From the NCBI GenBank assembly GCA_001303245.1, contig LJNS01000014.1, forward strand, positions 1-51,711: a DNA stretch of 51,711 bases. The letters are read 5' to 3'. The translations under genes and the position numbers were made by a program. Of this stretch, positions 1,929 to 30,953 are shown piece after piece. Source of the stretch: Gammaproteobacteria bacterium SG8_30 (lineage in GTDB: Bacteria > Pseudomonadota > Gammaproteobacteria > Steroidobacterales > Steroidobacteraceae). The notes beneath the pieces are model-generated. The model searched no databases. It was not told where the DNA came from and worked only from the letters and a program-made list of their open reading frames with translations. Each line of letters opens with the position of its first letter. Positions within the stretch are counted from its first letter, which is position 1.

Positions 1929-3824
1929 ATGTGCGGAATCTGCGGGCAGTACAATTACGTCGATCACGCGCCCGTTTCGCGGGAACTCGTTCGTGCCATG
2001 GCCGAGACGATCAGGCACCGCGGCCCGGACGATGAGGGCTACTATTTCGCGGACGGGATCGGGCTCGGCTTCCGGCGGCTCTCGATCATCGACCTGTCTG
2101 GCGGCCACCAGCCGATGGCCGATGGCTCGGAATCAGTCTGGGTTGCCTTCAACGGCGAGATCTACAACTTCCACGAACTCCGGGAGGAGCTCGAGGGGCT
2201 CGGTCATGTCTTCAGGACCCGTTCTGACACGGAGGTCATCATCCACGGCTACAAGCAGTGGGGTACCAAGGTCCTCCGACGACTCAACGGCATGTTCGGT
2301 CTCGCGATATGGGACGCACGTCGCCGGCGCCTGATACTCGGGCGGGACGCAGCTGGCATCAAGCTCGTCTACTACCGCGTTCAAGGTGGATCGGTAGTGT
2401 TCGGGTCCGAGCTGCGAGCGGTTCTGCGGGCACTGCCGAATCGTCCGCCGCTGGACATGACCGCGCTCAACCTGTTCCTGCGATATCGCTACACGCCCGC
2501 ACCCCTTACTTTGTACCAGGGGATCCGGAAGCTCGAGCCGGGAACGATGGCAGTGTTCGAAGGTGGAGAGTGGCGGGTCGAGAGATGGGATGTCGTGGAC
2601 GCGACACCGGTCGCGCCGGAACTCAAGGACGAGGAGGCGATCGACGAGCTGCTGGAAGTCTACAAGCGCGCTCTGAAGCGTCACCTGATCAGCGACGTTC
2701 CGGTCGGTCTGCTCCTGAGCGGGGGCGTCGACTCGGGCCTGCTGCTCGCGCTGATGAACCTGTACGGTGACCAATGGCCGACCTACACGGTCGGATATGG
2801 CAGGCAGGCCTACGAGGATGACGAGCTCACCGATGCCGCGGAGACGGCCCGTATCTTCGGCGCGCCGCACCATCCGGTTTCGATTGACCGGCGGGCCTTC
2901 GAGGAAGCGCTGCCAAGAATAGTCTCGATCGTCGAGGAGCCGGTTGCGACGTCGTCGATCGTGCCCATGTACTTCGTGTGCGAGCGGGCGAGGCAGGACG
3001 TCAAGGTCGCCCTCGTCGGTCAGGGTCCAGATGAGCTCTTCGGCGGTTACACACGTCACCTGGGCGTGCGCTATGGAGCCTACTGGCGGGCGGTGCCGGA
3101 CTGGTTGAGAAAGGGGCTCGAAAGTGGGCTCAAGCGTCTGCCGAGAAGCGAGGCCCTCAAGCGAGGCCTGCGCTCGCTGGACGTCGACGACCGGATGGCC
3201 CGTTACCGAGACGTGTTCTCGATTCTTCCGGGCGAGACTGTCGATTCACTCTTTCGTCCCGGTCTTCTTCCCGCCGGCTCTGGAGACACGGTTCTCGACA
3301 TATGGTCCGCCATGGGCCAGGCGATCGATCAGTCCGACGAACTGGGCGGGTTCCAGTTGATCGAGCTGCAGTCGTCGCTGCCGGACGAACTGCTCATGTA
3401 TGCCGACAAGCTGTCCATGATTCACAGCCTCGAGGTCAGGGTTCCATACCTGGATCGGGAGATCGTGGACTACGCGCGTCGACTCCCGGCGGCGTTCAAG
3501 ATTCGCGCCGGGCAACGCAAATGGTTGCACCGCAGGGTGTGCGAGAAGTTCCTGCCCGGCGAGATACTTCGCCGGAAGAAACGCGGCTTCGCCGTAAACG
3601 TCGTCGACAGTTGGTTCCAGGGTTCGCTTGGCGACAGCATGGACAGTTACCTCAAGGATCCGCGCTCGCTGATGTTCGACCACCTCAACGCGGCCGAGGT
3701 CGGAAGGCTGCTCGCGGAACACCGTGCGGGCGTTCACGACAACCACAAGATCCTGTTCAGCTTGGTGGTTCTCGAAGAGTGGTTGCGCTCGCAGGACTAC
3801 GAGCCCAACCGTGCGGCGGCCTGA
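1929..3824 (+). CDS. asnB: Glutamine-hydrolysing asparagine synthetase-type amidotransferase
   Basis: The 631-residue protein starts MCGICGQYNY, giving the N-terminal nucleophile Cys2 of class II glutamine amidotransferases (about residues 2-200, with RHRGPDDEG and the FNGEIYNF segment). A synthetase domain follows with the PP-loop SGGVDS near residue 264 and VGQGPDELFGGY. Both halves look intact, so it should hydrolyse glutamine and transfer ammonia to an adenylated carboxylate. In polysaccharide loci this family includes enzymes that amidate uronic acid residues (WbpS-like) and the XrtA/PEP-CTERM-associated amidotransferase; either fits better here than bulk asparagine synthesis. It starts 3 bases after the toroid gene. 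A uronic-acid pathway at 12.9-14.2 and 28.3-31 kb could supply the carboxylate, which is inference. Confidence 0.9.
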   Translation: MCGICGQYNYVDHAPVSRELVRAMAETIRHRGPDDEGYYFADGIGLGFRRLSIIDLSGGHQPMADGSESVWVAFNGEIYNFHELREELEGLGHVFRTRSDTEVIIHGYKQWGTKVLRRLNGMFGLAIWDARRRRLILGRDAAGIKLVYYRVQGGSVVFGSELRAVLRALPNRPPLDMTALNLFLRYRYTPAPLTLYQGIRKLEPGTMAVFEGGEWRVERWDVVDATPVAPELKDEEAIDELLEVYKRALKRHLISDVPVGLLLSGGVDSGLLLALMNLYGDQWPTYTVGYGRQAYEDDELTDAAETARIFGAPHHPVSIDRRAFEEALPRIVSIVEEPVATSSIVPMYFVCERARQDVKVALVGQGPDELFGGYTRHLGVRYGAYWRAVPDWLRKGLESGLKRLPRSEALKRGLRSLDVDDRMARYRDVFSILPGETVDSLFRPGLLPAGSGDTVLDIWSAMGQAIDQSDELGGFQLIELQSSLPDELLMYADKLSMIHSLEVRVPYLDREIVDYARRLPAAFKIRAGQRKWLHRRVCEKFLPGEILRRKKRGFAVNVVDSWFQGSLGDSMDSYLKDPRSLMFDHLNAAEVGRLLAEHRAGVHDNHKILFSLVVLEEWLRSQDYEPNRAAA

Positions 3825-4814: not shown

Positions 4815-5768
4815 ATGACATCGACCATTGCAGAGCAGTCGTCTACATCGTGCCAGGTCTACGAAAAGGAGATCCTCGTGGAGGGTCGTCCGACCAGGCT
4901 TCCGTGCGTGAACATTGACGGTGAGCTGTTCACCGTATTCGACGGGTTCCCGAGGATCATGACGCCGGAAGACGAGTGGGAAGACAGGCTGCGATCGCCC
5001 GAGCATGTGATCGAGACGAGTGCATCCCATCCCGAGATCAAGGCCGACATATTTTCCTTCTGGCAGGAATGGCCATCGAGCGAGTGCCGGTATCCGTATC
5101 CGTACGACTGGGAGGAGTTGGCGGTAGTTCCGACGACGTCTTATGACGACTGGTGGAACAAGAAGCTCAAGTCGAGGGTTCGCAACAAGGTGCGGAAGTG
5201 CGAGAAGAGCGGCGTCGTGATCCGCGAAAGCGAGTTCGACGAGGAGTTTGCCAGTGGCGTGGCCGCGATCTTCAACGAGAGTCCGATTCGTCAAGGTCGT
5301 CCATTCTGGCACTACGGCAAGAGTGCAGAGACGATCAGGCGGCAGTTCTCGCGCTACATGTGGCGGGAGCGCGTCGCGGCGGCCTACGTGGACGACGTGA
5401 TGGCGGGCTTCATCATGGTTGGCAACAAGGGCAAGTTCGGCTACATCGGGCAGATACTCTCGAAGATCGAGGACCGCGAGAGGGGAGTCAACGTCGCGCT
5501 GATGGCCAAGGCCGTGGAGATGTGCGCCGAGCAGGGTAACGAGTTTCTCGTCTACGGGTTCTGGGGCGATTCGTCCCTTGCCGAGTTCAAGCGCCGGTGT
5601 GGATTCGAGCCTGCACGGGTGCCACGGTACTTCGTGCCGCTCACGCGGGCAGGTTCGCTTGCTCTGAAGATCCAGGCACATCGGGGTATTTCAGGCGTTC
5701 TGCCGGCTCCTGTCGTGCGAGCACTCAAGCGTGTGCGGGCTTCAGCTTACGCGCTCCGGAACCGGTGA
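4815..5768 (+). CDS. FemAB/GNAT-family acyl- or aminoacyltransferase
   Basis: A 317-residue protein with the C-terminal GNAT/FemAB fold (Acetyltransf_6 type). It has basic KSRVRNKVRKCEKSG near residue 118, FIMVGNKGKFGYIGQILS for the core strand, GVNVALMAKAVEMC for the cofactor helix and FKRRCGFEPARVPRYF at the end. FemAB relatives transfer amino acids from aminoacyl-tRNA to amino groups, while GNAT relatives use acyl-CoA; motifs alone do not decide between them. A FemAB-like gene is also standard in XrtA-type exopolysaccharide loci. No signal or transmembrane segment is seen. It lies between a glycosyltransferase and the second asparagine-synthetase-like gene, suggesting N-acylation of a sugar or precursor. 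Confidence 0.75.
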   Translation: MTSTIAEQSSTSCQVYEKEILVEGRPTRLPCVNIDGELFTVFDGFPRIMTPEDEWEDRLRSPEHVIETSASHPEIKADIFSFWQEWPSSECRYPYPYDWEELAVVPTTSYDDWWNKKLKSRVRNKVRKCEKSGVVIRESEFDEEFASGVAAIFNESPIRQGRPFWHYGKSAETIRRQFSRYMWRERVAAAYVDDVMAGFIMVGNKGKFGYIGQILSKIEDRERGVNVALMAKAVEMCAEQGNEFLVYGFWGDSSLAEFKRRCGFEPARVPRYFVPLTRAGSLALKIQAHRGISGVLPAPVVRALKRVRASAYALRNR

Positions 5769-8757: not shown

Positions 8758-10155
8758 ATGCCCGCCTCTGTAGCGGCGCTTCTGGTGGTCATCTTCATTG
8801 CGTTCGCCGTCTTCGGTGAAGCACGGCGCAAAGAGGCCGGGCCGGCACTGTGGCTGCCCGTGCTCTGGATGGTCATTTGTGCGTCGCGGTTCCCTTCGCA
8901 GTGGATGCAGCTGGGCTCGCCGCTTGTCATGGACGAGGCCGCGGCGACCGAAGGTAGTCCGCTGGATGCCGCATATTTCGCTTCGCTGATCCTCATGGGG
9001 ACGATAGTCCTTGCCAGGCGCAAGATCGAGCCTTCCCGGCTCATCCAGATGAATCTGCTGCTGGCGCTCTTCTTTGCCTACGGGGCTGTCTCGATTCTGT
9101 GGTCGGACTTTCCGTTCATCGCATTCAAGCGGTGGGTGAAGACCCTCGGCCACCCGATCATGGCGCTGCTCATACTGACGGATCCCAATCCCGGTCTGGC
9201 ATTCCGGACGGTCATGAAACGCTGCGCCTACATACTGCTCCCGCTTTCGGTACTCTTCATCAAGTACCTGCCGGAGTATGGGCGGGGATTCGATCGCTGG
9301 ACGGGTGCGCCGACCAACCTCGGGGTTGGCCTGACGAAGAACGACCTCGGCTACGGATGCATGGTGTTCGGAATTTTCTCCGTATGGATGCTCCTTGCAC
9401 CGCGTGAGGGTGATTCCCCGGCCCTCCGCAGGAGGGAAGTCGCATTTGCCGTCGTGCTGCTCTCGATGGCGGTTTGGTTGCTGTACATGGCGGACAGCGC
9501 GACCTCGCTCGGTGGCCTGTTGATCGGCTCGGCAACGCTGCTTGCTCTTCGCTTCGGCCTGCTTGGGAAGAAGCACATCGGGACGCTCATCGTCACCGGG
9601 CTCGTTTCGGTGCTCCTGATCGAATGGGCATTCGACGCCTATGCCAGGATACTGGAGCTTCTCGGCCGGGAGGTGACGCTGACCGACCGTACGGAGATCT
9701 GGGCGGACGTGCTTGCCCTTCAGGATCGTCCGCTGATAGGCGCCGGCTTCGAGAGCTTCTGGCTCGGGCCAAGGCTCGAAGCAATGTGGGCGAAGTGGTG
9801 GTGGCATCCGAACCAGGCTCACAGCGGCTACATCGAGACGTACTTGAATCTCGGACTCATCGGCGTCGGTCTGCTTGCTGCGCTTCTCCTGTCGACGTTC
9901 AACAAGATCAGGTCGAGATTGTCGCCGACGTTCGGATACGCGGACCTTCGGTTCGCATTCTTCTTCGTGATCATCGCGTTCAACTACACGGAGGCGGCGT
10001 TCAAGGCTGTGCACCTCGTCTGGACGATCTTTCACCTGATCGCCATCGACTACCGAGACGAGGCGCGGCAGTCCGCTACGGCCCCGGAACGCGCCCGTGC
10101 CAGGCGACGCTATGCACGTGGCGGCAGCCGCTGGCGCCGGTATCCGGCTCGCTGA
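8758..10155 (+). CDS. O-antigen ligase/polymerase-like membrane protein (Wzy_C family)
   Basis: A 465-residue polytopic membrane protein with about ten hydrophobic segments (for example VAALLVVIFIAFAVF at the N-terminus and GLIGVGLLAALLLSTF near residue 375). The large periplasmic loop has the family pattern LTDRTEIWADVLAL, then GAGFESFWLG and HSGYIETYLNLGLIG. These are the conserved features of WaaL/Wzy_C proteins, which polymerise undecaprenyl-linked repeat units or ligate glycan to an acceptor. Sequence alone cannot separate the two roles; in an exopolysaccharide locus with a chain-length determinant, polymerase is more likely. A GGGAGGGTAGGGG stretch just before the ATG is a strong ribosome-binding site. 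The 144 bases before it hold nothing I can identify. Confidence 0.85.
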   Translation: MPASVAALLVVIFIAFAVFGEARRKEAGPALWLPVLWMVICASRFPSQWMQLGSPLVMDEAAATEGSPLDAAYFASLILMGTIVLARRKIEPSRLIQMNLLLALFFAYGAVSILWSDFPFIAFKRWVKTLGHPIMALLILTDPNPGLAFRTVMKRCAYILLPLSVLFIKYLPEYGRGFDRWTGAPTNLGVGLTKNDLGYGCMVFGIFSVWMLLAPREGDSPALRRREVAFAVVLLSMAVWLLYMADSATSLGGLLIGSATLLALRFGLLGKKHIGTLIVTGLVSVLLIEWAFDAYARILELLGREVTLTDRTEIWADVLALQDRPLIGAGFESFWLGPRLEAMWAKWWWHPNQAHSGYIETYLNLGLIGVGLLAALLLSTFNKIRSRLSPTFGYADLRFAFFFVIIAFNYTEAAFKAVHLVWTIFHLIAIDYRDEARQSATAPERARARRRYARGGSRWRRYPAR

Positions 10156-10156
10156 C

Positions 10157-11677
10157 ATGGATACGACTCTTCCGGTCGTGGTGTCGTGCCCTCGCCGGTT
10201 CCTTCCTCGTGTCCGCTATGTGCTCGACACGCTCTTCATGGCCGTCGGCATCGAGCTACGCTATCTCGATGAGGCGCCGACCGACGGAGTCTGGCTGAGC
10301 TACGGCCACGGGCACCGCAGTGATGGTGCGGGAGACCGTCGTGTCGCCGTGCCGTGTTCCGTTGCGGCGTGGGAGTTTCTCGAAGGCGCGGGCGACGTCA
10401 CGGCGAGCAGTGTCTTGGACGACCTGCCGGTGATTCTGCCGCAGCCGGCAGCCGCGACGGCACGAGCCTGGGACCTCAGTTTCGATCTCGTGGCCAACGC
10501 CTTTTTCTTCCTCACGTCATGGTCCGAGAGACGCGGGGCTGGCACTCAGGCATCAAGACAGCTATTCGAGAACAGCGTCTACGCCCGTCTGGGTTTGCCA
10601 CAGGACGTCGTGGATCGATACCTGCACGCTCTGCTCGATCGGCTGGACGCTGCGGCGAGCCCTGACGTCATCCGCCGAGCCAGGAACTGGCCAGGTGACC
10701 GGGGATTCGCCGTCGTGCTGTCGCACGACGTCGATTTCATTCCATCTGGCATCCGCGACATGCTTCGGCAGGGCGCGAAGACCATTCTCCGGCACCTGGT
10801 GCGTGAGCGGGACCCGATGGATGCCCTGCGCGCCGGCACGGGACTCGTGCGAGCCCTGGTGAAGGGCAAGGATCCTTACGGATGCATTCCTGAAATCATC
10901 GAACACGAGCGGAGGCTGGGAGTGAAATCGTCCTTCCAGGTCGCCGTGGCGCGTCATCACTCGAATGACGTCAATTACGATTTCGACGATGAGAAGACTC
11001 GCGAGTACCTCAGCGTGATCCCGCGGTCGGGCTTCGATCTCTGCCTGCACGGCAGCTATCTCTCGACCCGTCGAGCCGAGGCGTATGTCGGCGAGGCCGA
11101 AGTGCTGCGCGCGGCGCTGGGGGCCGTGGAGGGTTCGCGGCAGCACTTTCTTTCATTCGACTACGACACCCTGTTCTGTGCCCAGGAGGCCGCGGGCATC
11201 GAGTACGACATGTCGCTCGGCTATCCGGACCGATCCGGTCCTCGCGTCGGCTTCTCCTACCCCTTCTTCCCTTACGACCTGTCTGCGGACAGGCCGTTCA
11301 ACGTCGTGCAGTTGCCGCTGTTCCTGATGGACGTAACGTTGCGCATCTACATGGGCCTGAAGGGTGACGCGGCTCGGGATGCCGTTCGAGGTGAGATTGC
11401 CCGGCTGGCGGGCAAGGGAGGCTGCGTGTCCGCCGTCTGGCACCCGATCGTATTCGGGGGCGCAAGGGACCCGGGCATCGCAGAACTCTACTGGGACATG
11501 GTCACGCACATCTCCGACTCTGGCGGACTCGCGACGGATGGCCGGACGATCAACCGCTTCTGGAGAAGCCGGGCGACCGGCTTTGGAAGCTTTGCCGGGC
11601 TGCCGGGCCGGACCGGCGGTTGCGCGGATCGTGGCAGGGCCGTTGCCGATCATGCGCTGGAGGGGCAAACGGCGTGA
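10157..11677 (+). CDS. Polysaccharide deacetylase-family protein (HDVD type)
   Basis: A 506-residue protein with an N-terminal domain of about 190 residues seen in polysaccharide-locus deacetylases (DUF7033-like). A NodB-type barrel follows, opening with VVLSHDVDFIP near residue 195, where the HDVD aspartates replace the usual TFDD. LCLHGSYLSTRRAEAY near residue 300 is the probable metal-histidine region, but the normal HxxxH spacing is not obvious. WHPIVFGGARDPG near residue 430 closes the barrel. The ATG at 10157 follows the previous stop by one base; a start 60 bases upstream would overlap the ligase gene. It may remove N-acetyl groups from the glycan. There is no signal peptide, so a cytoplasmic substrate is suggested. 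Confidence 0.75.
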   Translation: MDTTLPVVVSCPRRFLPRVRYVLDTLFMAVGIELRYLDEAPTDGVWLSYGHGHRSDGAGDRRVAVPCSVAAWEFLEGAGDVTASSVLDDLPVILPQPAAATARAWDLSFDLVANAFFFLTSWSERRGAGTQASRQLFENSVYARLGLPQDVVDRYLHALLDRLDAAASPDVIRRARNWPGDRGFAVVLSHDVDFIPSGIRDMLRQGAKTILRHLVRERDPMDALRAGTGLVRALVKGKDPYGCIPEIIEHERRLGVKSSFQVAVARHHSNDVNYDFDDEKTREYLSVIPRSGFDLCLHGSYLSTRRAEAYVGEAEVLRAALGAVEGSRQHFLSFDYDTLFCAQEAAGIEYDMSLGYPDRSGPRVGFSYPFFPYDLSADRPFNVVQLPLFLMDVTLRIYMGLKGDAARDAVRGEIARLAGKGGCVSAVWHPIVFGGARDPGIAELYWDMVTHISDSGGLATDGRTINRFWRSRATGFGSFAGLPGRTGGCADRGRAVADHALEGQTA

Positions 11678-12946: not shown

Positions 12947-14242
12947 TCAACTGCGTTCGGGCTTCGCGGACCGGCCGATGCCGAAGTACAGGAGGCCGGC
13001 CCCTTCCGCACGCTGCCGGTCCCACAGGTTGCGGCCATCCAGGACTGCCTCGACGCCAGCCGAGCGCCAGCTCGGGAAGTCGATTTCACGGAAACCCGGG
13101 TGAGCGGTGTTGAGCACGACCAGTTCCGCGCCCTCAACGGATCCGGCCTGAAATCCGGAGCGCTCCAGCTCCGTGGTGGAGTAGTAGGGATCTTCGATCG
13201 TCGGAATGGCGGCACGCTGGATCAGGGCGTCGCGCAGGGCGTAGGCAGGGCTGAACGTGTCGACTTTCACGCCCGGCCTGAAACCGAGCCCGAGGATGTG
13301 CACGCGCCGCCCCGCCAGCGGCTTCCAGACTCCTGCGACGCGGTCCAGCTGCCGGGCGGGCTGACCGTCGTTGATCTCCCGCGCGGCCTCGGAGATCCGC
13401 TGTGTCATTCCCAGGCGTCTCGACTCGCGTGTCAGGAAGTACGGATAGACGGGCGTGCAGTGGCCACCCACCCCGATTCCCGGGAGCAGCAGGTTGGCCT
13501 CGCCATCCGTGTTCGCTGCCTGGCGGACCCGCTCGAAATCGACGCCCGCCAGCTCGCAGAAGGCCGCGAGTTCGTTGGCCAGTGCGATGTTCACATCCCT
13601 GAACAACATGCCCATCAGCTTGGCGGACTCTGCAGCTTCGAGTGACCCTACATCGTCGACCGGCGCCCCAAGGTAGCGGCTGTACAGTTCGATCGCGCGT
13701 CGTCGGGAGTCGTCGTCCAGCGCACCGACGACTTTCGGCGTCTCCTGCAGACGCGAGAGCACCATGTTTGCCTTGACCCTCTCCGGGCTGTAGGCAACGT
13801 GAAAGTCCGTGCCAGCGGCGAGACCGCTGTTCTGCTCCAGTACGGGTATCAGGTTGCGCCGCGTGCCTCCGACACTGACCGTCGTCTCGTAGACCACGAG
13901 CGTGCCGCGCTTCAGTCCCTTGCCGACCTCCGCAGAAGCAGCCTGCAGGACGCTGAAATCGATCTCCCTGTCGGCCGTCAGGTGCGCAGGCACGATCACG
14001 ACGATGGCATCCGAGACGGAAGCAGCGGCAGACGTATTCGTCGTTGCCCGGAGTCTGCCCTGCTCGTGCAGTTCTCGCATCAACTCGGGCAGGCCGGGCT
14101 CCTCGTACGGGCAGGAGCCCGAAGATACGGAGGCGACGAGAGCCGGATCGATGTCTGCCACGGTGACCAGCGCGCCGTGTCTGGCGAAAACGCATGCCAG
14201 CGGCAGGCCCATGCGGCCACCGCCCACGACCGTCACTTGCAT
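12947..14242 (-). CDS. Nucleotide-sugar 6-dehydrogenase (WbpA/WecC-like)
   Basis: A 431-residue UDP-glucose/GDP-mannose dehydrogenase family member. It has the NAD Rossmann motif VVGGGRMGLPLA at the N-terminus, SPERV near residue 170, a central helical domain with the AESAKLMG lysine, and the catalytic-cysteine motif GVGGHCTPVYPYF near residue 268. GGHC followed by P-V-Y-P-Y-F is typical of enzymes that oxidise UDP-HexNAc to the uronic acid (WbpA, WecC) rather than UDP-glucose. The ATG at 14242 is chosen because AAAGGAGAT lies 7 bases upstream and residues begin MQVTVVGGG; an upstream in-frame start adds 20 non-conserved residues. It would feed the WbpD/B/E-like operon at 28.3-31 kb. Confidence 0.87.
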   Translation of the reverse strand: MQVTVVGGGRMGLPLACVFARHGALVTVADIDPALVASVSSGSCPYEEPGLPELMRELHEQGRLRATTNTSAAASVSDAIVVIVPAHLTADREIDFSVLQAASAEVGKGLKRGTLVVYETTVSVGGTRRNLIPVLEQNSGLAAGTDFHVAYSPERVKANMVLSRLQETPKVVGALDDDSRRRAIELYSRYLGAPVDDVGSLEAAESAKLMGMLFRDVNIALANELAAFCELAGVDFERVRQAANTDGEANLLLPGIGVGGHCTPVYPYFLTRESRRLGMTQRISEAAREINDGQPARQLDRVAGVWKPLAGRRVHILGLGFRPGVKVDTFSPAYALRDALIQRAAIPTIEDPYYSTTELERSGFQAGSVEGAELVVLNTAHPGFREIDFPSWRSAGVEAVLDGRNLWDRQRAEGAGLLYFGIGRSAKPERS

Positions 14243-14740
14243 TGGGCGAGATCTCCTTTCAATAGCCCCACCAGCAGTATCGCTCGGTCGCCTGGCCCGC
14301 AACCGGTACCGCCTGCGCGCGGGAAACCCTTCCGAGTCTATAGATGCGCGGCGCGGGCAGAGCGGTCAACGATCGCACAATTCGTGTCGTACTTGACCAA
14401 GGCAGTCCAGAACCGTCATCCCCGTCACAGTAACGGGGCCCCGAGGGCGCGCTTGCGGTCCCGAATCGGCCGCGGCAAGCTTGGCGGCCGGGACCCGGCT
14501 CGCCGTCTTGGCGAAGCCGTCACCTGCAGGATGCGAAAGCCGACACCGGTCACACACCGCCTTTCCCGAATGCCCTAGCCTCCTGCGGGGAAGTACTCGG
14601 GACACACCCGTTCGTCAAGGGTTACATGCCGCGCAGATTCTTCGATTGCGCCTCAGGTCCCCGACCGGCTTCCTCGCCCGGGCGCACGGCACCAGGACGC
14701 TCCGGACCGGCCGGATGCGTCCGGCCTGTGGATCCGCACC
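14243..14740. other. Divergent intergenic region with back-to-back TTGACC elements
   Basis: No gene is recognisable in these 498 bases between the dehydrogenase (left) and the adenylation fusion (right). GGTCAA at 14364-14369 and TTGACC at 14393-14398 form an inverted pair resembling two diverging -35 boxes. On the minus side CATCTA lies 17 bases on and a better TATAGA 21 bases on; on the plus side the -10 is poor. This could be a divergent promoter or an operator, unproven. Confidence 0.3.
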
Positions 14741-17434
14741 GTGTCGCCTGAAGTTGCCGGTATCCTCCATGGCGGGGAGATCGTGCCGCCGCCTGAGGCG
14801 GGAGGCGCGCCTGCCCGCAAGGATCAGGTGGAGACATCCGGCGTTGGGGTCGAATTGACCGGTAATCTGCTCGAGAGGCTCGGCACCCATGCCATGGTCC
14901 GGCCGGACGCTCCCTGCGGGGTATCTTCCGGGCTGCAGGTCTCCTACGCGCAACTTCATCGGGCCAGCGACGAACTGGCTGCCCGCCTTCATGCCTCGGC
15001 AATCCGAGCCGGATCGACGCAGGTCGCTTCGGTATTGGCGGAGAGAAGCCCGCGACTGCTCACGGCATTGCTCGCGTCGATGAAAGCCGGACTGGCATTC
15101 AATGTGATCGACCCGCGCTATCCACGCAAGCGGACCAGCGAGTACCTGCGCTACCTGGACCCGGCCGTCGTCATCGACGCGACGGGGGACCGGCGCGCGG
15201 AGACGGACCTGGCTGAAGGACTGGCCAGGTCAACCGTTTCCCGAATCGTGGCCGTCGATACCCCTGCGGGACGATCCGGAGGCCCGGTTCCAGAGCCCCT
15301 CGTCTCTCGGTCCGACAGGGCCGCCGATTTCCCCATGTACGTCGCCTTCACCTCGGGAACCACCGGGCTGCCCAAGGCGGTATGGGGCTCGCACGGCCCT
15401 GTCGCCCACTTCTTCGAATGGCAGGCCGCCACCTTTTCGATCGGAGCCGGCGATCGCGTCAGCGTCCTCAGCGGGCTGGCGCATGACCCTCTGCTGCGTG
15501 ATCTGCTGATGCCGATATGGACGGGGGCAAGCTGCTGGTTCCCACCGGAAGAAGTCTTCACTACGCCGGGAGCCCTGTACTCGTGGCTTCTCGAGTCGGC
15601 CATCAGCGTCATGCACGCGACGCCAAGCCTCATCAGCCTGCTGCTCAACGTCCCGAGGTCCGACGTGGAGCCTCGCCTTCCCTCGCTGCGACACATCTTC
15701 CTGGGGGGAGAGCCGCTCCATCGCCACCTCGCCGCACGACTCCAGGCCTTGGCGCCTGCCGCGCAGATCGTGAACTGCTACGGGGCGACCGAGACGCCGC
15801 AGGTCATGGCATGGTACCGCGTCACTCCCGCAGTTCTCCAAGAGCGGCAGGCGACGAGCGGTCCCGACGTGGTGCCGATTGGGACCGGGATCGATGGTGT
15901 CGAACTGCTGCTGCTCGACGGAGACGATCGTGTCGTCGACGCCGGCCAGACCGGCGAGATCTGCATTCGCACACGGTACCGCGCGGCGCGGATCGAGGAC
16001 ACCTCGGGCGAATCGGCCTCCGGACTCGCCGTCAATCCTCTAACCGGGGACCCGGACGATCTCATCTACCGGACGGGCGACTACGGCTACCGCCTGCCGG
16101 ATGGCGACGTCGTGTGCGTCGGACGGCATGATCGCCAGGTCAAGGTTCGCGGATATCGAGTGGATCTAGGCGAAGTCGAGCGCGCCGTCGCCGCAATTCC
16201 CTGCGTGGGCCACTTCCACGTAGACGTCTGTGTCCGGGAGAATGCCGCGTCCATCGTGCTCTTCGTCGTGCCACGACACGAGAATGAGCCGGCAGACCTC
16301 GAGGCCATTCGCTTGCTGCTCGGCCAGGCGCTCCCGCAGTTCATGACACCTCACGAGATCCTGACGGTGGAGAACCTGCCGCTCACACCCAATGGAAAGG
16401 TAGACCGGGAGACCCTGCTGGACCTTGTGTCGGGCGTGCGGGAGAGCGACGCGTCCGGACGACCGGCCGATCAAGGCGACCTCATCGACTCCGGGATCGC
16501 CAAGATACTCGTGGGCCTGCGCCAGATGCGGTTTCCTCTCCTTGACTCCGCGGAGTCGATCGGTCCGATGGACTCGCTGCAGGTGATCGAATTCCTGTGT
16601 GCGCTTCAGGACGAGTTCGGTGAACAGGTGCCGCCTGAACTGCTCAGAAAGTCGCGGACGCTTGCCGAGCTTGCGGTGGGGCTGTCCGGCCTCGGCCATG
16701 GCGAACGCGGCAGATACGGAAGTCAAGAGTCCGGCGACGCGACGTCGTCGCTCGAGAGGGCCCCGGTCACGGAGCCGCCCCGAACTCGCGGGAGCCCTGC
16801 AGGGGCGCTCCGCAGGCGTCCGCCGTGGATCCCGCGGCGGGAGACGGCATGGGGCGCGGTTCGAAACCGGCTACTCCAGCTCGTGGCGCGCGTGGCACCG
16901 GACCCTGTGCGGGTGGCGTGCCATCGCCGCCGGGGGGTTGCCCTGGGCGAGGGCGTCTCGCTGGGCTACGACACGGTCATCGAAACCGCCTTCCCGAACC
17001 TGGTTAAGATCGGCAACGGCGTCAACGTCGGCATGCGCGTGACTATCATCGCCCACTTCCGCGGGATGGAGGGCTCCGACACCGGGCCGCCAACGGTCGT
17101 GATCGAGGACGACGCATTCATCGGGCCGGGAGCCATCATCCTGCCGAACGTGACGATCGGCCGGGCTGCCGTGGTGGCCGCCGGCAGCGTCGTGTCCTCG
17201 AGCGTTCCCCCGCTGACGTTCGTCCACGGCAATCCTGCCAAGCCGGTCGCTCGGTGCGGCGTGCCGTTGACCGGTGAGACGACCTACGAGGAATTCCTGC
17301 GCAGCCTGATACCGCTGGGTCCACAGGAAGGCCCCATGCTGCCGGGACTGAATCGCCGGCCGTCGTCCGCCGGGGCTGGCTCGAGCACGGACCGGGTGTC
17401 GCGCGGGGCGATCGCAACCACGGATGACAACTGA
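14741..17434 (+). CDS. NRPS-like fusion: adenylation domain, carrier domain, hexapeptide acyltransferase
   Basis: An 897-residue three-part protein. Residues about 35-560 are an ANL adenylation domain, with AFTSGTTGLPKAV (A3) near 200, NCYGATETPQ (A5) near 345, YRTGD (A7) near 443, GRHDRQVKVRGYRVDLGEVE (A8) near 455 and TPNGKVDR (A10) near 550. Residues about 570-650 are a carrier domain with GPMDSLQVIEFL; its serine would take phosphopantetheine. Residues about 730-840 are a left-handed beta-helix acyltransferase (IGNGVNVGMRVTI, IGPGAIILPNVTIGRAAVVAAGSVV, HGNPAKPV). The layout suggests that an amino or other acid is activated, tethered and transferred to a sugar amine or hydroxyl. It recalls Pls-type synthetases but lacks their membrane domain. 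The GTG start is uncertain: the next in-frame ATG (14894) would trim the front of the A domain. Confidence 0.85.
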   Translation: MSPEVAGILHGGEIVPPPEAGGAPARKDQVETSGVGVELTGNLLERLGTHAMVRPDAPCGVSSGLQVSYAQLHRASDELAARLHASAIRAGSTQVASVLAERSPRLLTALLASMKAGLAFNVIDPRYPRKRTSEYLRYLDPAVVIDATGDRRAETDLAEGLARSTVSRIVAVDTPAGRSGGPVPEPLVSRSDRAADFPMYVAFTSGTTGLPKAVWGSHGPVAHFFEWQAATFSIGAGDRVSVLSGLAHDPLLRDLLMPIWTGASCWFPPEEVFTTPGALYSWLLESAISVMHATPSLISLLLNVPRSDVEPRLPSLRHIFLGGEPLHRHLAARLQALAPAAQIVNCYGATETPQVMAWYRVTPAVLQERQATSGPDVVPIGTGIDGVELLLLDGDDRVVDAGQTGEICIRTRYRAARIEDTSGESASGLAVNPLTGDPDDLIYRTGDYGYRLPDGDVVCVGRHDRQVKVRGYRVDLGEVERAVAAIPCVGHFHVDVCVRENAASIVLFVVPRHENEPADLEAIRLLLGQALPQFMTPHEILTVENLPLTPNGKVDRETLLDLVSGVRESDASGRPADQGDLIDSGIAKILVGLRQMRFPLLDSAESIGPMDSLQVIEFLCALQDEFGEQVPPELLRKSRTLAELAVGLSGLGHGERGRYGSQESGDATSSLERAPVTEPPRTRGSPAGALRRRPPWIPRRETAWGAVRNRLLQLVARVAPDPVRVACHRRRGVALGEGVSLGYDTVIETAFPNLVKIGNGVNVGMRVTIIAHFRGMEGSDTGPPTVVIEDDAFIGPGAIILPNVTIGRAAVVAAGSVVSSSVPPLTFVHGNPAKPVARCGVPLTGETTYEEFLRSLIPLGPQEGPMLPGLNRRPSSAGAGSSTDRVSRGAIATTDDN

Positions 17435-19376: not shown

Positions 19377-19588
19377 GGGTTGACATAACACCACCTTTCT
19401 TCTCCGGGCGTGTCGCGCGCCAGAGACAAGGTCCACGGCGCGGAGATCAGCGCCTCTGATAGCATGGGCTCGAGATCTCCAGGAGCGTGGGCTCGACTCG
19501 ACGGACGCCGGCCGATGGCGGAACATCGGGCGGGCGGGGCGGTCTCAGTTGCTGTCGGTGGAAGTACCCTTGCCCATGGAGGGCAGCC

Positions 19589-20818
19589 ATGAACCAGGTC
19601 ATCCAGAGCGTTCGATGTGTCTGTTTGCCGCTGTTGGCTCTCTTGGCGTGGGTCCCGGCAGCCGGCGCAGCGACGATCTCGGCTTCCAGCTGTTCGCAGT
19701 CGGACGTGCAGGCCGCACTGACAGCCGCATCGGGTGGCGACACGGTCATGGTTCCCGCGGGCACGTGCTCGTGGACATCACTGGCGATATCGAAGGGAAT
19801 CAGGCTCAAAGGGGCCGGCGCGTCGGCGACCAACATCACGGTCACCGGCGTCGTGTCGGTCAGGAGAGTGGCTTCGCACGGCTTCGAGCTCAGCGGCTTC
19901 AGTTTCAGGAAGACCAATGATTCTTCCGAGCACATGTTCCTGATCGACGGCGCCTCGGATGCAGCGATGCCGCTCATCCACGACAACGTCTTCACGGTGT
20001 CGAACTCGGGCATCATCCGCTACGAGACCAATGGCGGTGTGATCTACGGGAATACATTCAACGGCGACCTCGATGACTCGGCAATCCAGCACAAGCTGAT
20101 CAGCGACGACAACCTGTCCTGGAGGACGCTCGACACGATGGGCGTCCGTGACACGGACGGCCGGAGCAACCTCTACATCGAAGACAACGCCTTCAACGGC
20201 ATGGCCAATCAGGCGCTGGACTTCGACGACTCGTCCCGCGTCGTTTTCCGGCACAACGTACTCACCAGTTCTTCCGTCAACAGCCACGGCCGCGATACGT
20301 CTCCCGTAGGGGTTCGTCACTACGAGATCTACGCCAACGAGTTCCTGTATCCGGACAGCCAGGTCAACCAGGTCTGGATGATCTGGCTGCGGGGCGGCAC
20401 GGGCGTGATATTCGACAACACGTTTGACGACATCCGGGGTCAGATGTGGGGCGACAAGATCGAGATCCGGATGTCCGTTCGCGCAGCGGACGAAGGGGGG
20501 GTCGATGGATGCTGCACGGTCTGGCCCTGTCGGCGTCAGGTCGGACAGACCTATGCGGTGGATCCGGTCGACGGCAGAGAGAAGGAATTGACGGACGGCG
20601 TCCGGTTCTGGGGCAACGCCGGCAACCCGGCGTGGGAGCTCGCCCGCTGGGAGAACACGTGCGGAAACGACGACATCACCGTATTCCTGCGGGAAGGACG
20701 CGACTTCGCCTTCTCGCCTTCACCGAAGCCGGGCTACTCGCCCTTCCCCTATCCTCATCCGGTGAGGGCCGATGCCGGCCCGAGGCCGTTGCCGCCGACC
20801 GGCATCTCCGTACAGTAA
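19589..20818 (+). CDS. Secreted right-handed parallel beta-helix protein
   Basis: A 409-residue protein with a clear Sec signal peptide (basic MNQVIQSVR, hydrophobic CLPLLALLAWV, then PAAGAA cleavage site). The mature part starts with the pectate-lyase-fold pattern SDVQAALTAASGGDTVMVPAGTCSW and IRLKGAGASATNITV. It continues as repeated short beta-strand coils (IYGNTFNGDLDD, LYIEDNAFNGM, VFRHNVLTSS, IYANEFLYPD, IFDNTFDDIRG). Such helices bind or cleave polysaccharide in the periplasm or outside the cell. A cysteine cluster (CCTVWPC) near residue 307 may form disulfides. The ATG at 19589 has GGAGG 7 bases upstream. It may be a lyase or epimerase for the polymer made here, but no catalytic residues can be assigned. 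Confidence 0.75.
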   Translation: MNQVIQSVRCVCLPLLALLAWVPAAGAATISASSCSQSDVQAALTAASGGDTVMVPAGTCSWTSLAISKGIRLKGAGASATNITVTGVVSVRRVASHGFELSGFSFRKTNDSSEHMFLIDGASDAAMPLIHDNVFTVSNSGIIRYETNGGVIYGNTFNGDLDDSAIQHKLISDDNLSWRTLDTMGVRDTDGRSNLYIEDNAFNGMANQALDFDDSSRVVFRHNVLTSSSVNSHGRDTSPVGVRHYEIYANEFLYPDSQVNQVWMIWLRGGTGVIFDNTFDDIRGQMWGDKIEIRMSVRAADEGGVDGCCTVWPCRRQVGQTYAVDPVDGREKELTDGVRFWGNAGNPAWELARWENTCGNDDITVFLREGRDFAFSPSPKPGYSPFPYPHPVRADAGPRPLPPTGISVQ

Positions 20819-20957: not shown

Positions 20958-22532
20958 TCAATCGACTGTCAGGTTGGCCGGCGGCATGGGCGGCGCGCCG
21001 CCCAGGCGCTCATAGGCGCCTATGTCCCAGCCGCCTCCGACAGGGCGGGACACAGCCGACTCGATGCTGCTCGAATACGGGGTGCCTAGCGCCGCCCCGG
21101 CATCGACTGCGGGCGACCCGGCGCGGAGGGACAGACCGGCGCGGTCGGGCGACAGATTGCCTCCAGCCTGACGGAGCCAGCCGCCTGGGAGGCTTGCGGC
21201 ATCCGTGAACAGGGGATCGGCCGCAACTGCGGTCGATTCGTAGCTGGCGAGGTTCGAAGCGACGAAGCTGGTGCCGGCCGAGCGGACGAGCGTGCCGCTG
21301 CCGAAGAACAGGTTGTTCGAGTGCGCCGTCACGCGTCCGCTGTCGGAGAAAGGCAAGCCGGACTCGTGGAAGAAGATATTGTTGCGGAACTCGAGGACGG
21401 GGAAGGACGCGGCTGCGTTGTTGACCACGACGGGAGCGTTGAAGAACGTATTGTTGAAGACGAGTATGGAGTTCGTATTGCCGAGATCACGGTCGATCAG
21501 GAAGCCGCCGCCCTGGCTGTTGTTGAGCACGAGGTTGCCGTAGACCTTGATGTCCTTGGGGTCTTTGCCGCTTGATCCATCGTAGATCCGGATGGACCCG
21601 TGAATCGTGTCGACAGCGACAACGTTGTGCCGGAAATGCACGTTCGTCGGGCCAACGCCAAAATGATTCGATTCGTTTCCATTCACGAACAGTCCCGCGC
21701 CCTTGGTGCCGGTGACGTAGTTGTACTCGATGACGGCGTCGACAACATGGCCCTTGACTATGATTCCGGACCCAGCGCCGTAGTCCGGGTCCAGGCCCGT
21801 GTTGTAAACCGTGTTTCCGCGAACGAGCACGTTGCGGACCATGCAGTCCGCGCTTTCGTCACCGGGGTAGATCGGCAAACCGTCCCGCGAAATGTCGTGG
21901 ACGACCGAGTTGAGAATCTCGACGTTCGCAACCTCGCCGTTCCTGCCGCCATGGTTGCTGACGATGATCCCGTACTTGTACTGCCCCTGCGACGTCCGGC
22001 TCCAGACGTCGTGGACGACGACGTCGTCCACACGCTTGCTTGCACCGGTCAATGGTCCCTCGTAGAAGCTGTGGTTCATCTCTATGCCGTTTGTCACCTT
22101 GCCGTTGGCGTCCACCTCAAAGCCACGGAAGGTCGTCTCCATGAGCGCGTGATCGCGGAAGCGAACGACAGCGGAGGCGATGTCGGCAGAGGCCCGGAGT
22201 GTCGCGCGGGTGCCCGATCCCCACTCGTTGCCGACGTAGGTGACGCCCCCGGTGAGGAAGATGCCCTGGGTGCCGCTTACGAGCCAGCTGTCGGCGCTGT
22301 CAAAGTACACGGTGTCGCCCGGCGCGAGTCGGCCCGAACCGGAGTAAGCCGCCATGCCAGGCGCATTGCGCCACGCGGACGACGGGGTTAGGCCATTGTT
22401 CGAATCGCTGCCGGCAGTTGCGTCCACATAGTAGGCGGCCGCACCAGCAGACGACGCCAGTGCGGCCTGCAGGGCAAGGGCGATCAGCGCCGGAAGTAAC
22501 CTGTCATCTGCGAGTCGGCGGGCAAGTCTCAT
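20958..22532 (-). CDS. Secreted right-handed parallel beta-helix protein (WDIGAYE end)
   Basis: A 524-residue exported protein. The signal peptide is MRLARRLADDRLL plus a hydrophobic LPALIALALQAALA segment, ending ASSAGAA. The mature protein opens YYVDATAGSDSNNGLTPSSA, the standard start of DUF1565-like parallel beta-helix proteins, and continues with coils such as VVHDVWSRTS, VEILNSVVHDI, VLVRGNTVYNTG, IEYNYVTGTKGAG, VYGNLVLNNS and EFRNNIFFHES. It ends near GGGWDIGAYERLG, a motif at the close of many secreted polysaccharide-lyase-like helices. The ATG at 22532 has AGGAG upstream and places the signal peptide first. It converges on the other beta-helix gene, so the locus carries two different extracellular candidates for polymer modification. 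Confidence 0.78.
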   Translation of the reverse strand: MRLARRLADDRLLPALIALALQAALASSAGAAAYYVDATAGSDSNNGLTPSSAWRNAPGMAAYSGSGRLAPGDTVYFDSADSWLVSGTQGIFLTGGVTYVGNEWGSGTRATLRASADIASAVVRFRDHALMETTFRGFEVDANGKVTNGIEMNHSFYEGPLTGASKRVDDVVVHDVWSRTSQGQYKYGIIVSNHGGRNGEVANVEILNSVVHDISRDGLPIYPGDESADCMVRNVLVRGNTVYNTGLDPDYGAGSGIIVKGHVVDAVIEYNYVTGTKGAGLFVNGNESNHFGVGPTNVHFRHNVVAVDTIHGSIRIYDGSSGKDPKDIKVYGNLVLNNSQGGGFLIDRDLGNTNSILVFNNTFFNAPVVVNNAAASFPVLEFRNNIFFHESGLPFSDSGRVTAHSNNLFFGSGTLVRSAGTSFVASNLASYESTAVAADPLFTDAASLPGGWLRQAGGNLSPDRAGLSLRAGSPAVDAGAALGTPYSSSIESAVSRPVGGGWDIGAYERLGGAPPMPPANLTVD

Positions 22533-28297: not shown

Positions 28298-29431
28298 TCA
28301 GGAAGCCTTGGCTCTCGCGACTTCCTCCTGCGGTGGAACGGCCAGTGCGCGGACTGCGTCGCAGACCGTCTGGCACTGCTCGGCGGTCAGCTCGGGGAAC
28401 ATGGGCAGTGACAGCACTTCGTCTGCGGCCGCCTCGGCATGCGGGAAGTCGCCTTTCCGGTAGCCCAGGTTGTCGTAGGCCGGCAGCAGGTGCACCGGGA
28501 ATGGATAGTGGATTCCCGTCTGGACGCCCTGCTCCTGAAGCGCTTCCTGCCACTTGGCACGATGTGGCGTCCGGATCGCGTATACGTGGAATACATGTCG
28601 CTGATGGTCGCGAGGCTGGGGTCGCTTGACGCCCGATCCGGAAAGCATCCGGTCGTAGTGGGCAGCGGCGGTGCGACGACCCTCGGTCCAGGCCTCGAGG
28701 TGCCGTAGCTTGACGCGCAAGACGGCACCCTGTATGCCCTCCAGGCGGTAGTTGAAACCCTTCAGGACGTGGTGGTACTTCTTCTCGGCGCCCCAGTCCC
28801 GGAGCATGCGGATCTTCTTGGCGAACTCCGGCTTGCTCGTCACGACCATGCCACCTTCGCCGTACGCGCCGAGGTTCTTGCCGGGATAGAAGCTGAAGCA
28901 GCCCATGTCGCCGAGGCTTCCTGCACGCTGGCCCTTGTACTCGGCACCATGTGCTTGCGCGGCATCCTCGATCACGATCAATCCATGGCGTCGGGCGACT
29001 GCCAGGATCGGGTCCATCTCCGCCATGAGGCCGTGCAGATGGACCGGCATGATCGCACGTGTCCGGGGCGTGATGGCAGCCTCGATCCTGGCCGGATCAA
29101 TGTTCAGGCTGTCCGGGTCGATGTCGACGAAGACAGGGCGTGCACCGGCGTACTCTATTGCGGCGATCGTAGCAACGAAGGTGAATGGAGTCGTGATTAC
29201 CTCGTCACCCGGGCCGATGCCCGCCGCGAGAACGGCAAGGTGCAGGGCACTCGTGCCGGAGTTGACGCCGATCCCGAATTTCGCACCCGAGTAGGCGGCG
29301 AACTCCTCCTCGAAGCTCGCGACATCGGGCCCGAGAACGTACTGGCAATTCTCGAGCACGTTGCTGACGGCGGCATCAACTTCGTCCTTGATGCTCAGAT
29401 ACTGCGCCTTAAGGTCAAGAAACGGGATCAC
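28298..29431 (-). CDS. DegT/DnrJ/EryC1/StrS sugar aminotransferase (WbpE-like)
   Basis: A 377-residue PLP enzyme with IPFLDLKAQYLSI at the N-terminus, NSGTSALHLAVLAAGIGPGDEVITTP (given here in family terms as the cofactor loop near residue 55), and FSFYPGKNLGAYGEGG near residue 180 carrying the Schiff-base lysine. It transfers an amino group from glutamate to a 3- or 4-keto nucleotide sugar. With the Gfo/Idh oxidoreductase and hexapeptide acetyltransferase directly upstream, the arrangement matches WbpB-WbpE-WbpD, making the 3-amino group of UDP-2,3-diacetamido-uronic acid. The start is GTG at 29431 with GGAGGAAGG upstream. It overlaps the preceding gene by four bases (GTGA). Confidence 0.88.
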   Translation of the reverse strand: MIPFLDLKAQYLSIKDEVDAAVSNVLENCQYVLGPDVASFEEEFAAYSGAKFGIGVNSGTSALHLAVLAAGIGPGDEVITTPFTFVATIAAIEYAGARPVFVDIDPDSLNIDPARIEAAITPRTRAIMPVHLHGLMAEMDPILAVARRHGLIVIEDAAQAHGAEYKGQRAGSLGDMGCFSFYPGKNLGAYGEGGMVVTSKPEFAKKIRMLRDWGAEKKYHHVLKGFNYRLEGIQGAVLRVKLRHLEAWTEGRRTAAAHYDRMLSGSGVKRPQPRDHQRHVFHVYAIRTPHRAKWQEALQEQGVQTGIHYPFPVHLLPAYDNLGYRKGDFPHAEAAADEVLSLPMFPELTAEQCQTVCDAVRALAVPPQEEVARAKAS

Positions 29432-30459
29432 GATGCCTTCCTCCGTTGACTCTGTATGTAGACGGTCTCTCCGCGGCCGCGCATGGAACTCGTCGCGGCC
29501 TCGATAAGTTCGACGACCCTGAGGCCGAGGCCGCCGTCGGTCTCCGGAGTCTTGCCATCGGCGATGCAGTCGACGAAGTGCTCGGCGCCCAGGCGAAGCG
29601 CTTCTGTTCCTGCCAGTTTTGGCGCCCACATGTCGCCCGTCCTGTAGCCCACGCGCAGCTCGTGAATCTGCTTCGGATCGTCGGTGAAGCTGACGCCCTT
29701 GTCGTAGATCTTGACTTTCTCGCTGGGTTCCAGGTCGTCGTAGGTGATCATCTTCTTGCTGCCGCCAATCAGGATCTGGCGAACCTTGACCGGGGCAAGC
29801 CAGCTGACGTTGCAGTGCGCGATCGTGCCGGATTCGTAGAACAGCGTGATGAATCCGAGGTTCTCAGGAGTGCCTGGAAAGTGATTCATGCCGCTGGCCG
29901 AGATCGCGACGGGATGCTCGCCGAGCAGGTAATCGAGAATCGAGAAATCATGGACCGCAAGATCGGAAATGACGTTCACGTCCCGCTGGAACAGTCCCAG
30001 GTTGATGCGGACCGAGTCGTAGTAGTAGACGCGGCCGAGATCACCGCTCTTGATGATCTCCCGCATCTTGCGGATGGCACCGGTGTAGATGAACGTGTGA
30101 TCCACGAAGAGACAGAGATTTCGCTTTGCAGCTTCGTCGATCAGCTTGCGCGCCTGCAGCGAGGTCTCGGTCATCGGCTTCTCGAGCCAGAGGTGTTTTC
30201 CGGCCTTGAGTGCGGCCATCCCGAGCTCGAAGTGTGTGTTGACCGGCGTCGCAATGGCGATGGCGTCTACCCCGGGATCGTCCAGAAGATCCTGGAATCG
30301 CGTCGTCGTCCTGACGGCAGGATAGCGCTTGTTGACGATATCCAGTTTGCTCGTATCGACGTCCGCGACCGCCGCGATTGCCGCGCCGTTGGCCTCCGCA
30401 AAGTTGCGGACCAGATTGGGTCCCCAGTACCCGTAGCCGATTACCCCGAACTTGATCAT
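29428..30459 (-). CDS. Gfo/Idh/MocA-family nucleotide-sugar oxidoreductase (WbpB-like)
   Basis: A 343-residue NAD-dependent oxidoreductase with FGVIGYGYWGPNLVRNF (Rossmann), AIATPVNTHFELGMAALKAGKHLWLEKPM around residue 75-105 (EKP catalytic lysine, split motif), and SDLAVHDFSILDYL near residue 168. In the WbpB pathway it oxidises C3 of UDP-GlcNAc-uronic acid before transamination. The substrate is inferred from its neighbours. It is in the middle of a three-gene minus-strand operon with four-base overlaps on both sides, so the three products are translationally coupled and likely made in similar amounts. Confidence 0.87.
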   Translation of the reverse strand: MIKFGVIGYGYWGPNLVRNFAEANGAAIAAVADVDTSKLDIVNKRYPAVRTTTRFQDLLDDPGVDAIAIATPVNTHFELGMAALKAGKHLWLEKPMTETSLQARKLIDEAAKRNLCLFVDHTFIYTGAIRKMREIIKSGDLGRVYYYDSVRINLGLFQRDVNVISDLAVHDFSILDYLLGEHPVAISASGMNHFPGTPENLGFITLFYESGTIAHCNVSWLAPVKVRQILIGGSKKMITYDDLEPSEKVKIYDKGVSFTDDPKQIHELRVGYRTGDMWAPKLAGTEALRLGAEHFVDCIADGKTPETDGGLGLRVVELIEAATSSMRGRGETVYIQSQRRKAS

Positions 30460-30953
30460 GTTTGGCCTGCCTGCTCCCTGTTTTCCCTGGTGTCGCCGAT
30501 GATCCGCGCCGGTACGCCGGCAACTATTGCGTACGCCGGGACGCTCTTCGTCACTACGGCGCCCGCCCCGACCAAGGCGCCCTCGGCAATCTCGAGCCCA
30601 GCGAGAATCGTTGCGTTGGAGCCAATCGAGGCCCGCCGGCCAATCCTCGTTTCGACCACTTTCCAGTCGGTCTCCGTCTGAACCGACCCGTCTGGATTCG
30701 CGGCGCGTGGATAGATGTCGTTGGTGAACATCACACCGTGGCCGATGAAGACCTCGTCCTCGATGTGGACCCCCTCACAGATGAAGGTGTGAGAAGAAAT
30801 CTTGCAGCGCGCGCCGACCGACGAGTTCTTCTGGATCTCGACGAACGCACCGATCTTCGATTCATCGCCGATCGAGCAGCCGTAGAGGTTGACGAGGTCC
30901 GCATGAAAGATCCGGACATCGCGCCCTAGCTTCACGCTCGGTGTGATCGGCAT
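30456..30953 (-). CDS. Hexapeptide-repeat N-acetyltransferase (WbpD-like)
   Basis: This 165-residue left-handed beta-helix acyltransferase has repeated hexapeptide turns (IGDESKIGAFVEIQKNSSVG, IEDEVFIGHGVMFTNDIYP, IGSNATILAGLEIAEGALVG) and ends VPAYAIVAGVPARIIGD. The FTNDIYPRA segment after the helix turn is characteristic of WbpD-type 3-N-acetyltransferases that use acetyl-CoA on a UDP-3-amino sugar. It is the first gene of the operon and its stop overlaps the WbpB-like start by four bases. Length matches the family. The sugar substrate is inferred from the operon. Confidence 0.88.
   Translation of the reverse strand: MPITPSVKLGRDVRIFHADLVNLYGCSIGDESKIGAFVEIQKNSSVGARCKISSHTFICEGVHIEDEVFIGHGVMFTNDIYPRAANPDGSVQTETDWKVVETRIGRRASIGSNATILAGLEIAEGALVGAGAVVTKSVPAYAIVAGVPARIIGDTRENREQAGQT

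Follow-up and report, generated by a model that had tools for sequence, protein, structure and literature searches.

Can a single soluble protein load an amino acid, hold it and hand it on to the sugar of a bacterial polysaccharide? The question is raised by a gene on contig LJNS01000014.1 of Gammaproteobacteria bacterium SG8_30, a contig that was analyzed at its entire length of 51,711 nucleotides (hereafter the window) and belongs to a 2.82-Mb draft genome that is 74.6% complete. The product of this gene, called ORF1 here (open reading frame 1), is confirmed as one frame joining an adenylation domain (A domain) of the nonribosomal peptide synthetase (NRPS) type to a carrier and a single left-handed beta-helix (LbH) acyltransferase domain, without membrane segments and inside a polysaccharide locus. 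My reading, to which I would give a probability of about 0.5, is that a polysaccharide pathway employs ORF1 as a self-contained (amino)acyltransferase, which would load its cargo, tether it and transfer it to an amino sugar.

The layout itself can be stated plainly. The frame is open for 897 codons from its first GTG, and GGCGGGGAG precedes a second one, GTG 14783, which gives 883 residues and by eye looks the better start than GTG 14741. Because codon position 2 has the lowest guanine-plus-cytosine (GC) content in all 14 windows of 60 codons each (residues 1-840), nothing points to a frameshift on the way from the carrier to the LbH domain, and from the in-frame GTGs at 16676, 16883, 16892, 16907 and 16913 a separate LbH product is conceivable. 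A first-pass annotation of the window, made by a model from its letters, had seen an A domain, a carrier serine and an LbH domain in one protein, and this is borne out by matches over the curated Pfam cut-offs for all four families concerned (AMP-binding, AMP-binding_C, PP-binding and Hexapep). It had also stated that the large membrane terminal region of Pls and PosA, the epsilon-poly-lysine and delta-poly-ornithine synthetases, is absent, and neither ORF1 nor the protein behind it, ORF2, contains a 19-residue stretch above 1.6 on the Kyte-Doolittle scale; the maximum for ORF1 is 1.56, and membrane helices in its terminal region were not found.

What would such an A domain activate? Pocket positions 235, 236, 239 and 517 were assigned by motif after the GrsA numbering, and the comparison was made with seven A-domain segments of six related proteins, namely a Massilia A-carrier protein (L006), NRPS of Streptomyces (L044, L047), Azospirillum (L046) and Bradyrhizobium (L045), and an AMP-binding protein of S. 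globisporus C-1027 (L048) that is presumably SgcC1. These hold the nearest A domains, 31-38% identical to ORF1 in the best segment of each. In this alignment the pocket code of ORF1 reads D-P-R-H-F-G-C-Q-V-K, with both Asp235 (D249) and Lys517 (K553) kept; D, R and H at 235, 239 and 278 are common to five of the seven segments (L044 module 2, L047, L045 module 1, L046 and L006), while L044 module 1 and L048 are without this set, and the ETPQ motif of ORF1 recurs in L006 and L044 module 2. The first-pass annotation had named a pocket without the anchoring aspartate, resembling acyl-CoA ligases, as the result that would speak against amino acid transfer. What was found is the reverse, with D249 and K553 in place and, among the 25 of 126 NCBIfam families listed, adenylation families (291, 258 and 200 bits) standing above the best acyl-CoA ligase (133 bits). 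The second of these scores belongs to the Lys2/aminoadipate-semialdehyde dehydrogenase model, whose best stretch (residues 201-411) includes the pocket; the third is one of two DltA scores, both under cut-off (200 of 476 and 187 of 560 bits), and the exosortase-system acyl-CoA ligase model TIGR03098 is likewise under its cut-off (119.3 of 592.35 bits). The Lys2 pocket code is DPRHFVMR and, if it applies here, Arg239 would indicate a second carboxylate on the substrate, an argument from few residues. Since this arginine/histidine pair comes together with a good Lys2-family match, an acidic or dicarboxylic amino acid is suggested as the substrate. Lys2-type A domains also keep the anchoring aspartate, so that this residue is no proof of an alpha-amino acid.

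The carrier motif GPMDSLQ (residues 608-614) is of the DSL type, and when the piece is made to begin behind serine 612 the PP-binding score falls to 15.0 bits. Four matches to the phosphopantetheinyl transferase family PF01648 exceed their cut-off in the same genome, one of the four loci with an Sfp-type motif, and a search of that genome for condensation domains gave none over cut-off and one weak match (16.8 vs 30.6 bits). The hexapeptide repeats of the LbH domain are above the Hexapep cut-off (37.7 vs 27 bits), with Hexapep_2 under its own (23.1 of 27 bits), and the best PDB matches of this part are DapH-type and maltose O-acetyltransferases. Its NCBIfam matches after the top one are TIGR03308 and then the NeuD/PglB/VioB sugar acetyltransferases (48 of 161 bits); none of the 25 families listed exceeds its cut-off, and for this reason an N or O acceptor cannot be read from the LbH family. 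Acceptance of a thioester from a carrier has precedent in this fold, as LbH acyltransferases using acyl-carrier thioesters include LpxA and LpxD.

From these parts the following sequence of steps can be proposed. The A domain would form the adenylate of an amino acid, which would most likely be acidic or dicarboxylic; the in-line carrier, once phosphopantetheinylated, would take it over as a thioester; and the LbH domain, probably a trimer by analogy with its family, would pass it to a sugar that is bound to a nucleotide or a lipid, the acceptor most likely being an amine exposed by a deacetylase that the locus encodes, either ORF2 or a VimE-like protein. The logic has its precedent in AlmEFG and lincosamide synthetase, the layout in Pls/PosA and the product in N-aminoacyl sugars. 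What the sequence shows are the domains, the pocket residues, the carrier serine, the lack of strongly hydrophobic segments and the gene context, whereas the class of substrate, the succession of the steps, the trimer, the acceptor, N- over O-transfer and a role for ORF2 are inferred. Aminoacylation of a sugar, as the first-pass annotation interpreted the fusion, is a plausible activity. A sharper version, which I consider doubtful as a whole, is that an amino-dicarboxylic acid in a Lys2-like pocket is joined, possibly through the carboxyl at its far end, to an amino sugar whose amine the deacetylase of the operon would have exposed; ORF1 would then be a missing enzyme type behind the N-aminoacyl sugars of bacterial glycans and, in effect, a homotrimer that does in soluble form what the membrane-bound, threefold LbH region does in Pls/PosA.

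Coordinates of the fusion protein, its domains and the neighboring genes discussed in the text (positions in the window)
Feature	Position	Strand	Remarks
A-carrier-LbH fusion protein (ORF1)	14741..17434	+	GTG start; likelier start GTG 14783
Adenylation core, AMP-binding, residues 50-412	14888..15976	+	Pfam E 6e-58; top PDB hit, linear gramicidin synthase (E 6e-73)
A4 motif AHDPLLRD	15479..15502	+	anchoring Asp 249 (= GrsA 235), Pro 236, Arg 239; motif numbering
Adenylation C-terminal subdomain, AMP-binding_C, residues 478-553	16172..16399	+	includes Lys 553 (= 517); 25.9 vs 24.5 bits cut-off
Carrier, PP-binding, residues 610-645	16568..16675	+	26.7 vs 20.8 bits cut-off; serine 612 at 16574-16576
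LbH acyltransferase domain, about residues 705-840	16853..17260	+	extent judged by eye; repeats (hexapeptide) at 786-819; IIAHF contains His 772
ORF2, 628 (or 623) residues	17435..19321	+	directly behind ORF1 stop; VIDDP 18167, HGCDH 18350; no family
Nucleotide-sugar dehydrogenase	12947..14302	-	TIGR03026, 301 vs 190 bits cut-off; divergent from ORF1
VimE-like deacetylase	10097..11677	+	NF053580, E 1e-20, 74 of 440 bits; plasmid relatives annotated polysaccharide deacetylase
Asparagine-synthase-type amidotransferase	1929..3824	+	TIGR03108, 482 of 817 bits (under cut-off); TIGR01536, 437 vs 267 bits (over)
GNAT/FemAB-like protein	4815..5768	+	weak pepcterm_femAB likeness, TIGR03019, E 0.0012, 18 of 260 bits
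DegT aminotransferase, Gfo/Idh dehydrogenase, LbH acetyltransferase-like genes	28298..30953	-	possibly a WbpE/B/D-like set

The placement of ORF1 in a polysaccharide locus, likewise claimed at first pass, agrees with its surroundings. The genes upstream of it encode two asparagine-synthase-like proteins, glycosyltransferases, a Wzy-like protein, the VimE-like deacetylase and the nucleotide-sugar dehydrogenase; downstream are a beta-helix protein, heptose genes, an XrtA-type chain-length determinant and the DegT aminotransferase/Gfo-Idh/LbH set, in which the aminotransferase scores 317 bits against WbpE, with three other PDB sequences scoring higher, and the Gfo/Idh protein has UDP-GlcNAc 3-dehydrogenase as its best NCBIfam family (156 of 450 bits). 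The family pepcterm_femAB, to which the GNAT/FemAB-like protein shows its likeness, is the one that VimA also matches. ORF2 can start at GTG 17435 (628 residues) or ATG 17450 (623 residues), and here the earlier claim of an adjacent 623-residue deacetylase-like protein stood in part: the size fits the second start and two motifs reminiscent of CE4 deacetylases, a DD (in VIDDP) and an HxxxH (in HGCDH), can be picked out by eye, but no profile matches, and a CE4-type deacetylase is what these two motifs would make of it. Homologues of ORF2 were confined to its own genome among 59 genomes at E 1e-5 and among 398 at E 1e-6; neither the whole protein nor its core matched the plasmids, its pattern matched no viral contig, no PDB sequence matched at E 1, and the VimE-like protein has no significant similarity to it (best E 0.81).

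Several other features of the window deserve a line of their own. A right-handed beta-helix protein (19487-20818, + strand) and a Disaggr_assoc/choice-of-anchor Q protein (20958-22577, - strand) adjoin the fusion operon. The XrtA/PEP-CTERM-type chain-length determinant (TIGR03007, 26289-27878, + strand) scores 407 vs 279 bits, in a 75% complete draft genome that yielded no exosortase: PF09721 has no match at E 0.01, and the PEP-CTERM signal TIGR02595 has one match there, under cut-off (14 vs 16 bits). The idea of an aminoacyl sugar as the anchor of exosortase-sorted proteins has therefore lost support. Between 33205 and 37959 (+ strand) runs a row of DUF4910/DUF2172, glucose-1-phosphate cytidylyltransferase-like, PIG-L deacetylase, 2OG-Fe(II)/PhyH oxygenase-like and branched-chain-type class IV aminotransferase genes; in the second asparagine-synthase-like protein (5873-7702, + strand) the synthetase match covers just positions 2-132 of 354; a 446-residue protein without family (585-1925, + strand) has weak toroid/pectic acid lyase likeness (E 0.07-0.15); and two long open reading frames, 46299-49091 (+) and 46485-49067 (-), overlap on opposite strands in GC-rich DNA.

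How widespread is this order of domains? The samples searched overlap, and with strict thresholds and at most two (phylum, order) or three (class) candidates scored in each genome, more distant relatives could have gone unnoticed. Within these limits ORF1 was found in its own genome alone among 59 genomes of its relatives' sample (E 1e-60), 396 genomes of the order (E 1e-62) and 274 of the class (E 1e-58), and in two of 398 genomes of the phylum (E 1e-75), the second (G352) matching residues 37-565 within a 3235-residue frame, that is, the A domain only. Of 72,556 plasmid records, 696 have a match at E 1e-20, but in none does it extend over 80% of the query; in the five plasmid regions that carry annotation, the related A domains belong to NRPS or AMP-binding genes which, as far as annotated, lie outside glycan loci. 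When the carrier-LbH piece was searched in 143 class genomes, 47 had a match including the own genome, but outside it none of the rows extends back as far as the carrier (query residue 116 of 275 at the earliest), and no frame exceeds 614 residues. A pattern search of genome contigs, with patterns built from a single protein, returned three loci, of which two (561 and 546 residues) look by eye like plain acyl-CoA ligases and the Massilia one is an A-carrier protein beside a polyketide synthase; in viral contigs three stretches fit a pattern, and no relative is among them. A Pfam scan of five of the related proteins (L045 left out) gave a condensation match in four and none in Massilia, and no hexapeptide match at E 0.001 in any. 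The exact three-domain order, whose homologues the first-pass annotation had proposed to seek, thus has no second example in the samples searched, and its rarity holds for these searches. Among the papers listed by the literature searches, no title or abstract opening describes such a fusion, and none of the terms sought is present in the A-domain review PMC11253843.

A number of results weigh against the reading of ORF1 as a self-contained aminoacyltransferase of amino sugars and should be set out together. The amino-acid adenylation model TIGR01733 stays narrowly under its cut-off (291.4 vs 317.4 bits). The top NCBIfam match of the LbH domain is an O-acetyltransferase (NF058585, 65 of 300 bits), which leaves room for ester transfer or for plain transfer of acetyl groups. 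His 772 lies in the loop in which LbH acyltransferases have their catalytic histidine, but its column holds a histidine in only 3 of 28 LbH relatives (28 of 29 loci yielded an LbH segment), many others having one nearby in the same loop. Single-sequence structure models are poor, with a mean predicted local distance difference test (pLDDT) score of 34.3 for ORF1 and 38.9 for ORF2. ORF2 finds no Pfam family even at E 5 and one unrelated NCBIfam match (E 0.25). The VimE, WbpS and pepcterm_femAB models are all under cut-off in the window, WbpB is not among the PDB names matched by the Gfo/Idh protein, and the Wbp/Vim-like genes are scattered over about 29 kb on both strands. No second protein of this order was found in the searches made, which leaves the reading without support from conserved neighbors or residues, and because the genome is about 75% complete, absences from it count for little.

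One alternative is another cargo in the same machine: an A domain loading a dicarboxylate or hydroxy acid such as malate, with the LbH domain N- or O-acylating the sugar, would agree with the shortfall of TIGR01733, R239 and H278 would suit a carboxylate, and a 3-N-malyl 2,3-diaminoglucuronate is known (PMC3210612); yet Asp235 is kept and adenylation families outrank the acyl-CoA ligases listed, and I consider this unlikely. The acetyltransferase families matched by the LbH domain would also fit a capping role, in which it N-acetylates the carrier-bound amino acid and another enzyme, for example the GNAT/FemAB-like protein, hands the resulting N-acyl amino acid on to the sugar; sugars bearing N-acetylated aspartyl, seryl and threonyl groups have been described (PMC10609480). 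Such a scheme demands a second, carrier-recognizing transferase, and the chance that it is right seems small.

There are two further explanations. The lack of a match in 58 other relatives (E 1e-60) or 395 other genomes of the order (E 1e-62), in samples that overlap, together with plasmid-borne A-domain relatives that lie outside glycan loci as far as annotated, could point to an orphan fusion of recent or horizontal origin with no working glycan role, whether tailoring a small molecule or decaying, but the frame and motifs are intact and ORF2 follows directly behind in a glycan locus, which makes this rather improbable. Very improbable is a soluble, truncated variant of the Pls/PosA enzymes whose product would be an isopeptide oligomer without sugar attachment: it would explain the identical A-carrier-LbH order, the PosA C-terminal region has been modeled with LbH helices (PMC10522769), and the LbH region of ORF1 aligns to NRPS_term_dom (TIGR02353) at E 2.5e-11, but only over model positions 112-227 of 695 and with 42.7 of 423.1 bits, five other LbH families score higher on ORF1, membrane segments are lacking and the locus is one for polysaccharide.

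The first-pass annotation had called the transfer a little-described activity, but aminoacyl sugars are well described as structures (PMC10609480; PMC3210612) and separate-protein systems exist; what does stand out is the one-chain layout with its single LbH domain. The enzymes that activate and transfer the amino acids of N-aminoacyl glycans are themselves little covered, at least in the parts of PMC10609480 that deal with these structures. With all parts in a single soluble protein, aminoacylation would become testable in vitro, and ORF1 could become a sugar-aminoacylating tool. If the proposal of load, tether and transfer is true, ORF1 would also connect the assembly of glycans with NRPS chemistry and serve as a simple model for the Pls/PosA LbH region.

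How does ORF1 compare with what is already known? Its activity would not be new in kind, because AlmEFG, Dlt and lincosamide synthetase load and transfer as separate proteins; DltABCD, for teichoic acid D-alanylation, uses separate proteins with a separate carrier carrying a DS motif and a membrane acyltransferase, and the DltA-type score on ORF1 (200 bits) is under cut-off. AlmG, the last member of the Alm chain, is not known to be an LbH protein. AlmEFG resembles the proposed ORF1 in its adenylation, carrier and acyltransferase chain, but is spread over three proteins and places glycine on an acyl chain of Vibrio lipid A (PMC12930378). Lincosamide synthetase (LmbC, LmbN-CP and more subunits) comes close in product, since an NRPS A domain and carrier lead to the amide of an amino acid with an amino sugar, but it belongs to an antibiotic pathway, comprises several proteins and, in the account given by PMC4351081, has no LbH domain named. 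The Wbp/Vim enzymes of Porphyromonas gingivalis, which include WbpS, VimE and VimA, make a 2-N-seryl, 3-N-acetylglucuronamide, an N-aminoacyl diamino-uronic sugar, VimE being thought to free the amine and VimA, the presumed transferase, to add the amino acid; no adenylation-carrier module is named in the corresponding parts of that report, which also notes that exosortase loci contain genes for deacetylases and for relatives of VimA and WbpS, and that clusters of VimA, VimE and Wbp genes occur in other places (PMC7468200). Genes with a likeness to Wbp, WbpS and VimE are present in the ORF1 locus too, but as the VimE, WbpS and femAB matches are under cut-off and no exosortase was found in the draft genome, this pathway serves as an analogy and not as an assignment. 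Products of the expected kind are on record, with N-linked amino acids including Asp on bacterial amino sugars in a number of O-antigens and capsules, among them N-acetyl-D-aspartyl 4-amino-4-deoxyquinovose (Qui4N), for which a cited title says aspart-4-yl (PMC10609480). In layout ORF1 resembles Pls/PosA, with the same order of adenylation, carrier and LbH, and a PosA terminal region modeled as three LbH helices, packed like sugar-nucleotide acyltransferases, on membrane helices (PMC10522769). ORF1 differs in its one LbH unit, in having no membrane helices by hydropathy, in scoring far under the NRPS_term_dom cut-off and in its glycan locus, and as a homotrimer its LbH domain would give a core resembling that of Pls/PosA without the membrane. 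ORF1 is a compact fusion of known parts for what would be a reaction type known from multi-protein systems, and its distinctive point is the one-chain layout with a single LbH domain.

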